A DNA stretch of 64,000 bases, taken from contig NZ_CP034443.1 in NCBI RefSeq assembly GCF_003952365.1, positions 5,449,001-5,513,000 of the forward strand, in the 5' to 3' direction. The number at the start of each line of letters is the position of its first letter. Within the stretch, counting starts at the first letter, position 1. The translations under genes and the position numbers were made by a program. Source of the DNA: Mesorhizobium sp. M9A.F.Ca.ET.002.03.1.2 (GTDB lineage Bacteria > Pseudomonadota > Alphaproteobacteria > Rhizobiales > Rhizobiaceae). This document shows, in pieces, positions 17,352 through 37,323 of the stretch. The notes beneath the pieces are model-generated. The model was not told the origin of the DNA and did not search any database. It saw only the letters and a list, made by a program, of their open reading frames with translations.

Positions 17352-17544
17352 CAAATTTCCCCTCGTCGGCGCCACGGGATCCAGTCGATGAGGGTTGTGG
17401 CGCGCTGCCGCAAAATGTGCGCTAGGTCGGTAACTCCTCACCGCCGCAAAGCTTCGGTTGAGACCGTTCACGAGTCAACCCTTGGCGATGCTGTTTGACA
17501 CAGCGACAAAGCGCGGTTGAGGCCTTTCATTTTCCATGATCGAT

Positions 17545-17870
17545 CCCTATATTCGCGTTGTCGGCTTGACCGACTATGGCGATAAACAGGCGATGAAATA
17601 AGCCGTTCGGACCCGGGGGCGGTACCCGGCGCCTCCACCAAAAACCGCTCTTCGAAGAGCGGCTTTTGCTGGGGGCGAAATAGGATCGACGAAGGTGTAA
17701 AGATCGTACTTTTGCCCGGCATTGTACCACCGTTATCGGGCTAAACTTATAGTTGCCAACGACAACTATGCGGAAGCACGTCTCGCCGCGTAAGCGGTGC
17801 GATAGCTTCAATTCAAGCCCTAGTGGTTCGCACTTCTAGGCGGGGTTCGGAGGTACCTGGCAACAGAAAC
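17545..17870 (+). ncRNA. ssrA: Permuted two-piece tmRNA
   Basis: The gene is circularly permuted, as in other alphaproteobacteria. First comes the acceptor piece, ending with an encoded CCA at 17640 and a T-arm-like stem (CCGGG/CCCGG). A spacer with a perfect 18-bp palindrome (17645-17662) follows. The coding piece starts GGGGGCGAAATAGGATCGAC at 17671. GGGGGCG at its 5' end pairs with CGCCTCC before the CCA, leaving a G-U pair at the third position, the alanine identity mark. The tag reading frame is 17755-17793: ANDNYAEARLAA then TAA. The outer ends (about 17545 and 17870) are approximate. tmRNA rescues stalled ribosomes and tags products for ClpXP; its adaptor gene sspB lies 3 kb away. Confidence 0.95.
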
Positions 17871-18160
17871 CTCCACTCCTCCTTTTCTCTCCCCTTCAAC
17901 GTTTATCGCGGCAGCAGGCTTGCTGGCCGAATTCTCGCGCGTGCCAAATAACGGCCGCGAAGCTGTCTGCCCGGCTAAGGTGTGTTGAGAGTCAGGTCAG
18001 GCCGGCATCACCTGAATATCAACGCACCTTAACCGGTCATGCCACCGCTTCTCGGCGCTTCAAGGCCGAGCTGCTTTTGATCCAGAACAAAGAATCCGAG
18101 ACCAGGTCTTGGTAAATAATCAGTGAATTTGTTGATGGAGAATATGGAAGGGGCGTTCCC

Positions 18161-34551: not shown

Positions 34552-37323
34552 ATGTCCGGCTTTTCGGAAGACATGCCCTTTTTTGACGAACCGAATGCGC
34601 GGCCCACGGCCCCGTCCGGCATCGCCGCGCGCGCCATGGCCGCCCGCAGCGGGCGCAACGACGCGCCCGACTATCTGAAGGGGCTCAACCCCGAGCAGCG
34701 GCTCGCGGTGGAGACCACCGAAGGCGCGGTGCTGGTGCTGGCCGGCGCCGGCACCGGCAAGACGCGCGTCTTGACCACCCGCATCGCCCACATCCTTGCC
34801 ACCGGCAAGGCATTCCCCTCGCAGATCCTCGCCGTCACCTTCACCAACAAGGCCGCGCGGGAAATGAAGCAGCGGATCGGCCTGCTGATCGGCGAAGGCA
34901 ATGTCGAAGGTATGCCGTGGCTCGGCACTTTCCACTCAATTGGCGTGAAGCTGCTACGCAGACACGCCGAGCTTGCCGGGCTCAAATCCGATTTCACCAT
35001 TCTCGACACCGACGACGTCGTGCGCCTGATCAAGCAGCTCATCCAGGCCGAAGGGCTGGACGACAAGCGATGGCCGGCCAAGCAGTTCGCCCAGATGATC
35101 GACGGCTGGAAGAACAAGGGGCTGGGCCCCGCCGATATTCCGGAGGGCGACGCCCGCAGCTTCGCCAACGGCAAGGGCCGCGAACTCTACAAGGCCTACC
35201 AGGAGCGGCTGCAGACGCTGAACGCCTGCGATTTCGGCGATCTCCTGTGCCACCCGATCCGCATCTTCCGCGCCAATCCGGACGTGCTGAAGGAATACCA
35301 TAAGCGCTTCCGCTACATCCTTGTCGACGAGTATCAGGACACCAACACCGCGCAGTACATGTGGCTACGCCTGCTCGCTCAAAGGCCGGATGCTTCGACG
35401 AAGGGCGCGCGCGGCGACAGCGGCCGCCCAATCTCCCCCCATGTGGGGGAGATGTCCGGCAGGACAGAGGGGGGCGCCGTAGAGCGCAACCCTTCCCACA
35501 CAGCGGAATTCAAAAGTGGAAAGGCCGGCGGGACAGCGCCCCCCTCTGTCGGCTTCGCCGACATCTCCCCCACAAGGAGGGAGATTGGGCGCTCTTCAGC
35601 CGAAACCCGTGCCAGCGTAAATATCTGTTGCGTCGGCGACGACGACCAATCCATCTATGGCTGGCGCGGCGCCGAGGTCGACAACATCCTGCGCTTCGAC
35701 AAGGATTTCCCCGGCGCCACCATCATCCGGCTGGAGCGCAACTACCGCTCCACCGCGCACATCCTCGGCACGGCCTCCCACCTCATCGCCTACAATGAGG
35801 GCCGCTTCGGCAAGACGCTGTTCACCGAAAAAGTCGCCGAGGACGACGAGAAGGTGCACGTCCACGCCGCCTGGGATTCCGAGGAGGAGGCCCGCGCTGT
35901 CGGCGAGACCATCGAGGCCTACCAGCGCCCAGATAAACAAGGAAATCGGCACAATCTCAACGACATGGCCATTCTGGTCCGCGCGTCCTTCCAGATGCGC
36001 GAATTCGAGGACCGCTTCGTCACGCTCGGCCTCAACTACCGCGTCATCGGCGGGCCGCGCTTCTATGAACGCCTCGAAATCCGCGATGCGCTGGCCTTCT
36101 TCCGTGTCGTCGCGCAAGGCGCCGACGACCTCGCTTTCGAGCGCATCGTCAACGTGCCGAAGCGCGGGTTGGGCGAAGCCACCATTCGCCAGATCCACGA
36201 CACGGCGCGCGCGCTGCGCATCCCGATGCTGGAGGCCGCCGCCACGCTCGCCGAGAGCGACGAGCTGAAGCCGAAGCCGCGCGCGGCACTGCGCGAGGTC
36301 GCCGCCAATTTCGAGCGCTGGCAGAAGGCGCTGGAAACCACGCCGCATACCGAGCTTGCCGAGACCATCCTGGAGGAGAGCGGCTACACCGACATGTGGA
36401 AAAACGACCGCTCGGTGGAGGCCCCCGGCCGGCTGGAAAATCTGAAAGAACTGATCCGCTCCATGGAGGAGTATGAATCGCTGCGCTCCTTCCTCGAGCA
36501 CGTCGCACTGGTCATGGACGCCGAGCAGAACGCCGAGCTCGACGCCGTCAACATCATGACGCTGCATTCGGCCAAGGGCCTCGAATTCGAGACCGTTTTT
36601 CTCCCCGGCTGGGAGGAAGGTCTTTTTCCCCACCAGCGCGCCCTCGATGAAGGCGGGCGCTCTGGCCTCGAGGAAGAGCGCCGCCTAGCCTATGTCGGGC
36701 TGACTCGCGCCAAGAAGAACCTGCACCTCTGGTTCGTCTCAAATCGCCGCATTCACGGGCTGTGGCAATCGACCATACCGTCGCGCTTTCTCGAGGAACT
36801 GCCGGAAGCCCATGTCGATGTCGCCGAGAGCGGCAACTCCTATGGCGGCTACGGCAATTCCTATGGCGGCGGATCGTTCGCCTCCGGACGGGGCGGCCAA
36901 GGGGCAGGAAGACAGAACCCTTACGGCGCTTCGCGCTTCGACAATGTTGGCGAGGAAAAGGCGGGAAGCTTCTCCAACACCTATGCAACGCCGGGCTGGC
37001 AGCGCGCGCAACAGAACCGCACCGAGGCGACCGACCGCAACTGGGGCTCGCGTTCCGGCCACCAGGTCGAGCGCATCGGCTATGGCGAGACCGACTCCGG
37101 CTATGGCGCCGGCCGCACCTCGATCAAGGGCCGCACCATCGACGGCGAGCTGGTCGCCAAATCCGTCGCCGATACGCCGTCCGCCTTCAGCGTCGGCGAC
37201 CGCGTCTTCCACCAGAAATTCGGCAACGGCAACATATCAGCCATCGACGGCAACAAGCTGACCATCGACTTCGACAAGGCCGGCCAGAAACGCGTGCTGG
37301 ACGGGTTTGTCACTGGCGTTTGA
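34552..37323 (+). CDS. uvrD: UvrD/PcrA-type DNA helicase with internal palindromic insertion
   Basis: 923 residues, longer than usual. Superfamily 1A helicase motifs in order: Walker A LAGAGTGKTRVL near residue 64, TFTNKAAREMKQRI, DEYQDTNTAQYMW (motif II) near 261, VGDDDQSIYGWRGAEV (motif III) near 360, and NIMTLHSAKGLEFETVFLPG, then YVGLTRAKK. A Gly/Tyr-rich linker and a C-terminal Tudor-like domain (DRVFHQKFGNGNISAIDGNK) end it. Between motifs II and III about 80 residues replace a linker usually about 10 long; most come from a palindromic repeat (see 35426-35590), read in frame. Acts in mismatch and excision repair. Confidence 0.93.
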   Translation: MSGFSEDMPFFDEPNARPTAPSGIAARAMAARSGRNDAPDYLKGLNPEQRLAVETTEGAVLVLAGAGTGKTRVLTTRIAHILATGKAFPSQILAVTFTNKAAREMKQRIGLLIGEGNVEGMPWLGTFHSIGVKLLRRHAELAGLKSDFTILDTDDVVRLIKQLIQAEGLDDKRWPAKQFAQMIDGWKNKGLGPADIPEGDARSFANGKGRELYKAYQERLQTLNACDFGDLLCHPIRIFRANPDVLKEYHKRFRYILVDEYQDTNTAQYMWLRLLAQRPDASTKGARGDSGRPISPHVGEMSGRTEGGAVERNPSHTAEFKSGKAGGTAPPSVGFADISPTRREIGRSSAETRASVNICCVGDDDQSIYGWRGAEVDNILRFDKDFPGATIIRLERNYRSTAHILGTASHLIAYNEGRFGKTLFTEKVAEDDEKVHVHAAWDSEEEARAVGETIEAYQRPDKQGNRHNLNDMAILVRASFQMREFEDRFVTLGLNYRVIGGPRFYERLEIRDALAFFRVVAQGADDLAFERIVNVPKRGLGEATIRQIHDTARALRIPMLEAAATLAESDELKPKPRAALREVAANFERWQKALETTPHTELAETILEESGYTDMWKNDRSVEAPGRLENLKELIRSMEEYESLRSFLEHVALVMDAEQNAELDAVNIMTLHSAKGLEFETVFLPGWEEGLFPHQRALDEGGRSGLEEERRLAYVGLTRAKKNLHLWFVSNRRIHGLWQSTIPSRFLEELPEAHVDVAESGNSYGGYGNSYGGGSFASGRGGQGAGRQNPYGASRFDNVGEEKAGSFSNTYATPGWQRAQQNRTEATDRNWGSRSGHQVERIGYGETDSGYGAGRTSIKGRTIDGELVAKSVADTPSAFSVGDRVFHQKFGNGNISAIDGNKLTIDFDKAGQKRVLDGFVTGV
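35426..35590. repeat. Mesorhizobium-type palindromic element inside uvrD
   Basis: Two arms of about 52-55 bp (35426-35477 and 35536-35590) are inverted copies matching at most positions, around a 58-bp centre. Each arm itself folds (CCCCC/GGGGG), giving a cloverleaf-like shape. The element spans 165 bp, a multiple of three, and is read through in frame as about 55 residues of UvrD. Confidence 0.9.

Follow-up and report, generated by a model that had tools for sequence, protein, structure and literature searches.

In-frame repeats as alternative fillings of a variable loop in the Mesorhizobium UvrD/PcrA-type helicase

Known in-frame palindromes and the Mesorhizobium locus

Abundant palindromic intergenic repeats such as RIME and Bru-RS are found in rhizobia and Brucella, of the same order as Mesorhizobium. 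Here we describe a palindromic element that lies inside a gene, the uvrD/pcrA-type helicase gene of Mesorhizobium sp. M9A.F.Ca.ET.002.03.1.2, where it is read in frame between helicase motifs II and III. The gene is part of a 64,000-nucleotide (nt) stretch of contig NZ_CP034443.1 (positions 5,449,001 to 5,513,000), called the window below and numbered from its first letter. Both Rickettsia palindromic elements (RPEs) and repetitive extragenic palindromes (REPs) have been reported in frame within genes (PMC10969869, PMC3733652; the portions of these papers covered here). The RPEs are likewise dispersed palindromic repeats of about 150 bp that are read in frame as protein, and the element family here shares two of their marks, a dispersed palindrome of about that length (167 nt) and an in-frame position in genes of known function (uvrD and cobN). 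Compared by description in the same portions of the two papers, RPEs occupy different hosts and many unrelated genes, whereas here one loop holds several repeat families, with fillings that seem to have been exchanged.

Intragenic REPs are likewise in-frame palindromes in repair genes; the portion of PMC3733652 covered here names a "UvrD/REP helicase" among the repair genes carrying REPs, describes different REPs at about the same site in recB of two Xanthomonas, holds that chance is an improbable reason for the REPs in repair genes, and offers a speculation on mutators. The UvrD/REP helicase case may concern the same loop; the word "Mesorhizobium" has 0 occurrences in the main text, and order-wide recurrence at one UvrD loop and unlinked exchange of alleles are not among the reports in that portion. 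Paired units, head-to-head or tail-to-tail, occur here as in REP/REPIN systems, but the REP-associated tyrosine transposase (RAYT, PF01797) has no match in the genome of the window (G000), with 5 of 14 control genomes matching (including E. coli), and RAYT was dropped as the mover of the elements. In the mitochondrial coding palindromes of Nematomorpha (PMC6649704, the portion covered here), long inverted repeats also lie inside functional coding sequence, but there both arms code for conserved protein regions, whereas the present palindrome is extra, predicted to be disordered, and replaceable. A literature search covering few subscription journals gave nothing that we recognised on palindromes in Mesorhizobium uvrD, and the papers found, in the parts covered, held nothing on order-wide recurrence at the UvrD loop or on unlinked exchange of fillings. 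The kind of insertion is already known from in-frame palindromes and from REPs in repair genes; order-wide recurrence at one loop, together with fast allele exchange, extends it.

The helicase loop and its class A palindrome

The 923-residue protein matches PF00580 (1.3e-86) and PF13361 (3.6e-64) in Pfam and TIGR01073 (1e-222) in NCBIfam, the NCBIfam scores being under the curated cut-offs; its helicase core and fold are complete, and it belongs with UvrD/PcrA. We take DEYQDTN to be motif II and GDDDQSIYGWRG to be motif III. The features discussed here are the following.

34552-37323, plus strand: uvrD/pcrA-type helicase gene with the loop (923 amino acids, single open frame)
35326-35346, plus strand: motif II, DEYQDTN, residues 259-265 (D259, E260 and Q262-N265 invariant in the alignment)
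35383-35619, plus strand: hypervariable loop of 79 codons, bounded by ...RLLAQ and NICC (from loop comparison)
35425-35591, plus strand: class A palindromic element, a head-to-head pair of repeat units, 167 nt, in frame as RPISPHVGEMSGRTEGGA...APPSVGFADISPTRREIGR
35425-35456, plus strand: outer left arm (inverted-repeat search)
35463-35480, plus strand: inner left arm (inverted-repeat search)
35533-35550, plus strand: inner right arm (inverted-repeat search)
35560-35591, plus strand: outer right arm (inverted-repeat search)
35590-35619, plus strand: right edge, RSSAETRASV (sequence comparison, including the A+D composite P0009)
35635-35670, plus strand: motif III, GDDDQSIYGWRG, residues 362-373 (open reading frame and alignment)

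An earlier sequence-only reading of this DNA had placed about 80 residues between the two motifs and a 165-bp inverted repeat at 35426-35590; both stand, as the 79 codons of the loop and as the 167-nt palindrome. Its outer arms (32 nt each) are 94% complementary, and the fold of 35420-35595 reaches -119.9 kcal/mol versus a mean of -73.0 for shuffled sequences (z -10.3; 0 of 200 shuffles as good). The element is read through without a stop, as had also been stated, the 923-residue frame being open throughout. Against the 79 codons from ...RLLAQ to NICCVGDDDQ, E. coli UvrD (3lfu) has 5 residues at the equivalent place in the alignment. AlphaFold2 predicts disorder at this position: residues 286-352 have a predicted local distance difference test (pLDDT) score below 50 in a model with a mean of 75.7, and are flanked by helices 266-276 and 281-285 and by strand 357-363. 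(A first AlphaFold2 model, from 25 close sequences and with pLDDT 50, was too poor and has been superseded.) The right edge RSSAETRASV appears to resemble both the ..EGRATV of the short alleles and the SAEGR.. with which class D begins.

The sequence-only reading had proposed a DNA search for further copies. In its own 6.4-Mb genome the class A element gave 133 BLAST pieces, own copy and cross-matches included; many elements are represented more than once, by both arms or on both strands, and scoring covered 40 of 99 first-look candidates. The element is a dispersed repeat, and a member of a repeat family has become protein sequence, as had been suggested. Its two units are head-to-head in the uvrD copy and tail-to-tail in many dispersed copies and in the cobN copies. 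By eye, the outer arms carry no GTAG/CGTC tag; in the window copy the inner left arm ends in a GTAG, which is missing at that place in another class A copy (L087).

The same family has a second host gene. In cobN (PF02514) of the same genome, outside the window (G000:C1 ~5396050-5399100), a class A pair lies in frame and tail-to-tail at about residues 463-526 of the protein (P0122), which has a second repeat-like stretch, ..AGHPPFKGEGKV... UvrD as the sole host gene was rejected on this ground. The cobN gene (loci L241 and L393-L422), which we take not to be a repair gene, was found in 61 of 61 genus genomes searched, with about half of the matches spanning the insert. Among 30 cobN loci, 28 were readable: 27 have the class A form, and L422, from another species, has a different filling at the first place; these loci were fetched with the own-genome copy as query and are biased towards the class A form. 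Ten open reading frames at other class A places (nine loci) were compared with Pfam: eight had no match, the cobN element lies inside the match region, and in an SLT_2 reading frame the element lies upstream of the domain.

Alternative fillings and their turnover

All 146 genus genomes searched encode a UvrD protein. The gene was taken from 145 of them (G097, with no coordinates listed, was left out), and 143 loops were readable, the other two genomes having a contig break at the repeat (G050) or a truncated contig (G100). After correction, the 143 loops comprise class D (58), A (28, whole or reduced), B (24), D2 (9), E+D (8), C (8), short (5), F (2) and C+D (1), with about six different fillings in the genus, D the commonest and the loop of the window in class A. 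The loop has several alternative alleles, of which the palindrome is one, and the phenomenon is real and broader than the sequence-only reading described. Loops of 20 residues or fewer are found in 6 of 142 cases (L087 of genome G003 is not in this count), with a median of 50 residues. One insertion missing from most close relatives, as had been expected, does not hold, since almost all genus loops are long, and a single recent insertion into a short loop was rejected for the same reason. We note two assembly effects: in G050 (L088, L146) the assembly breaks within uvrD at the loop, as expected if a palindrome halts assembly, and the loop of L087 includes a lengthy poly-C/poly-G run that probably arose when the palindrome was assembled.

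A fold z below -3 was obtained for 20 of 27 class A loops, 16 of 24 B, 7 of 7 C, 2 of 2 F and the one C+D loop (1/1), versus 0 of 58 D, 0 of 9 D2 and 0 of 8 E+D (0/75 together); control stretches of the same genes gave 4 of 197. By class, palindromic kinds account for 63 of the 138 non-short loops. The sequence-only reading had named, among others, most close relatives carrying the same segment in non-palindromic DNA as the observation that would speak against it, and this is half the case: 75 of the 143 loops are long and not palindromic. Class D needs another or an older origin. Half-elements and internal deletions of class A with the frame intact (L089, L092, L095, L106, L108, L113, L125) suggest repeated in-frame deletion.

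Repeat searches with the other classes gave 65 places for class B in G032 and 30 in G000, and 31 places for class C in G025 and 13 in G000 (uvrD copies and cross-matches included; in most searches scoring covered 40 first-look candidates per genome). That A, B and C stem from repeats and are read in frame is well supported. As for silent donor cassettes within one genome, an idea that was dropped, the best second copies among the matches listed are 83% (B, G032), 83% (C, G025) and 78% (D, G099) identical, again with 40 candidates per genome scored in most searches. The frame is kept in 230 of 232 loops (143 from the genus and 89 from other genera of the family), the exceptions being L090 (assembly gap) and L099 (frameshifted). 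L099, a class B loop, comes from a single-contig genome (G047) and reflects either a sequencing error or a broken uvrD. In classes A to D, stops in the coding frame occur only in these two damaged loops; in other frames they are frequent, with frame +2 of A having stops in 23 of 28 loops and frame +1 of D in 52 of 58.

The ratio of nonsynonymous to synonymous differences per site (pN/pS) in the loop is 0.56 for A (24 loops), 0.43 for B (22), 0.27 for C (7), 0.48 for D (25 drawn from 58), 0.46 for E+D (7) and 0.92 for D2 (9), versus 0.09-0.14 outside the loop in the same gene; base pairing within palindromes may act as a brake on synonymous change as well. Synonymous divergence in the loop versus the core is 0.169 versus 0.331 for B, 0.115 versus 0.321 for C, and 0.230 versus 0.325 for A.

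In the family sample, 150 of 151 genomes match, and by hand count the match is broken at the loop in about 62 of 147 evaluable genomes outside the genus. We took 60 of the loci with a broken match and the 30 best with an unbroken one, and 89 of these 90 could be parsed: 29 have 20 residues or fewer and 51 have 40 or more, with class A-like, C-like, D-like and other repeat-like fillings by eye. Of the 62 loops whose length allowed folding, 21 gave z below -3. Among the best 80 named loci, all 16 from Nitrobacteraceae (mostly Bradyrhizobium) have 40-93 residues from DEYQDTN to VGDDDQ (about 16 of them fixed), and their loop peptides, e.g. VIPGRVEDANPES and SLPGLTRQSI, look like repeat translations; the same interval is 19 residues in the six Stappiaceae and 23 in most Rhizobium and Agrobacterium. 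A phylum-wide sample with 29 loci in addition to our own gave 26 parsed loops, of which 25 are short; the remaining, long loop belongs to a member of the same order. The earlier statement that relatives have about 10 residues is right for other classes and for most Rhizobium and Agrobacterium, and wrong for the genus.

For a strain-level view we used the best 120 of 7964 protein hits, which gave 119 further sequences. The composites among those listed are A+D (P0009), D with a remnant of A (P0014, P0034) and C+D (P0072, P0073, P0084, P0103). P0073 (C+D, Mesorhizobium sp. L103C131B0) and P0100 (E+D, C416B) differ in no column outside the loop, nor do they differ in the D part. Under the depositors' species names, the classes in M. 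caraganae are E+D (P0089) and B (P0112, P0117), with 5-8 amino acid differences elsewhere, and those in M. muleiense are B (P0054) and D (P0059), with 12. Overall, among 121 proteins (12 labels set by hand), pairs differing by at most 1% of amino acids outside the loop are of the same class in 158 cases and of different classes in 51.

The B loops of 24 species have junctions and most of the spacer in common, with small length variants. One of them (L013) scores higher with each of the 23 other B loops (194-286 bits) than with any of the 5 dispersed loci compared (at best 150 bits); a C loop (L065) is nearer to 6 other C loops (245-281 bits; a gap-bearing C loop fell below the length filter and was left out) than to 5 dispersed loci (119 bits); and the A loop of the window is nearer to 17 of the 27 other A loops passing the filter (113-237 bits) than to 13 dispersed loci (101 bits). 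On a uvrD tree from which the loop was excluded, 140 genomes (three further rows were incomplete and not used) require at least 55 changes of class, well-supported branches alone forcing 24 changes for D, 16 for A and 16 for B, and the class often differs between species 2.4-5% apart. When neighbours are chosen by the 60 nt beside the loop, 30-31% of nearest sequences agree in class (chance 29%), and when they are chosen by the whole gene, 40% do. Mantel correlations (128 genomes) between class and each 120-nt window of the gene range from -0.065 to +0.037, those between neighbouring windows being 0.22-0.69.

Using independent close pairs (27 of different class and 20 of the same class), we measured divergence beside the loop relative to the gene. 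Within 30 nt it is 1.44 for different-class versus 1.03 for same-class pairs (difference 0.41, bootstrap 0.15 to 0.69), and within 60 nt 1.00 versus 0.77 (bootstrap difference 0.06 to 0.41); no excess was seen at 120 or 240 nt in these pairs. Import of alleles with long flanks is unsupported, as there is no linkage and no excess divergence past 60 nt. Taken together, these comparisons suggest that loop alleles have probably been exchanged with a tiny footprint, and exchange within species between strains of different class would fit too.

A triple tandem resembling class D (L348-L350, G099:C1:937249-937518; copies 77-79% identical to the class D loop) adjoins the 3' side of a gene that reads as aspartate-semialdehyde dehydrogenase. 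In the window itself, an alphaproteobacterial tmRNA gene lies at 17521-17877 on the plus strand (Rfam RF01849, 313 bits).

Competing explanations and what the loop may mean

We consider it likely that a permissive disordered loop was colonised in frame by repeats and that its alleles were then swapped by very short-tract recombination. The segment between motifs II and III would be such a loop, presumably on the surface of domain 1A, and in Hyphomicrobiales it would have repeatedly taken up, in frame, repeats of which the host genome has many copies, insertions that break the frame being lost through selection on the helicase. In Mesorhizobium, the older non-palindromic filling D would have come first; because A+D, C+D and E+D composites exist, the palindromic A and C, and also E, would then have been added at the left edge of D, and D would often have been deleted later, so that A, C, probably B, and the short alleles remain. 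Computation shows that A, B and C come from repeats, that the fillings are read in frame, that several alleles and composites occur and that linkage is lacking; the direction of the steps, short-tract recombination as the mover and near-neutral tolerance as the reason are what we infer. Alleles would have moved between strains and species by short-tract recombination with a footprint of about 30 nt, so that the loop turns over apart from the gene. Near-neutral tolerance would be the reason that all this is borne; we prefer it, with fair assurance, over a selected function. The presence of the family in cobN, too, makes UvrD one of at least two host genes and speaks for tolerance rather than for a role specific to repair.

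Several results weigh against this account. The commonest class, D, is not palindromic, and palindromic repeats leave most genus loops unexplained; outside uvrD, the two genomes searched for class D gave the one triple tandem in G099 and no match in G000. Classes A, B and C are not separate kinds: their hairpins are in part similar, and 10 of the 30 class B places in G000 overlap class A places, so that place counts do not equal family sizes. The lack of a RAYT match in G000 leaves no known mover. Synonymous divergence in the loop is not lowered for D (0.335 versus 0.353 in the core) or E+D (0.365 versus 0.312), so recent spread is not supported for these two, and pN/pS mostly below 1 makes some constraint on the loop possible. 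Class is also non-random on the tree (55 changes versus a shuffled mean of 75). When the footprint is split by side, only the left 30 nt are clear (1.97 versus 1.38) and the right side and the further windows are not, and a pooled comparison of non-independent pairs (74 and 40) shows little effect; exchange is moreover deduced from one genome per species plus proteins. The partial kinship of A, B and C and the one-sidedness of the footprint lower our confidence in the account slightly.

The loop may instead be functional and under diversifying selection, through contact with a partner or evasion of an inhibitor (e.g. one encoded by a phage or a conjugative element). Its fast class turnover, decoupled from the gene, the class differences inside M. 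caraganae and M. muleiense, and the mostly low pN/pS would suit such a role, as would the case made in the covered portion of PMC3733652 that chance hardly accounts for the REPs in repair genes, with its speculation on mutators. The fillings, by eye, nevertheless share no motif and no fixed length, the sole modelled filling has no predicted structure, and deletions and half-elements occur. With the same element family also in frame in cobN, presumably no repair gene, we regard a functional loop as unlikely. A diversity-generating site is a speculative idea that we would give slightly less weight: repeats would serve as peptide cassettes, hairpins would drive very short-tract gene conversion, and selection would keep many cassettes per population, for example for escape from phage or conjugative factors that target UvrD or for tuning of the mutation rate.

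Recurrent independent insertion in each species, without exchange between species, is improbable: it accounts for the missing flank linkage and for the different fillings in other genera, but the B and C loops of Mesorhizobium share junctions and are mutually closer than to dispersed copies (5 loci compared for each), and a small left-hand footprint is seen. The shared junctions would need no exchange if an ancestral composite loop had held E, A, B, C and D together and lost its parts differently by lineage, and the E+D, C+D and A+D loops are in keeping with this; species 2.4-5% apart differ in class, however, so composites would have to last to the tips, and neither B with another class nor more than two classes together was found in the 143 genus loops and the 119 proteins listed, which makes such an ancestor quite improbable. 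Removal of the segment from the mRNA or the protein, by bypass or splicing, giving a helicase of normal length, deserves almost no credence, given that the frame is kept in nearly all loops, that non-palindromic fillings behave alike and that no Rfam family matches at the loop at the gathering threshold.

On the preferred reading of a colonised, tolerant loop with exchanged alleles, this part of uvrD offers a natural experiment, i.e. one loop of a core repair enzyme with many natural fillings, several of them of known repeat origin, in near-isogenic strain pairs. Whether in-frame palindromes are noise that repair genes tolerate or a cause of altered repair and mutation, a question that PMC3733652 raised in 2013 in the portion covered and to which the papers covered here give no answer, becomes testable. 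The locus also shows a route from dispersed repeats to protein, and the loop may serve as a marker of recombination with a footprint far below gene length.

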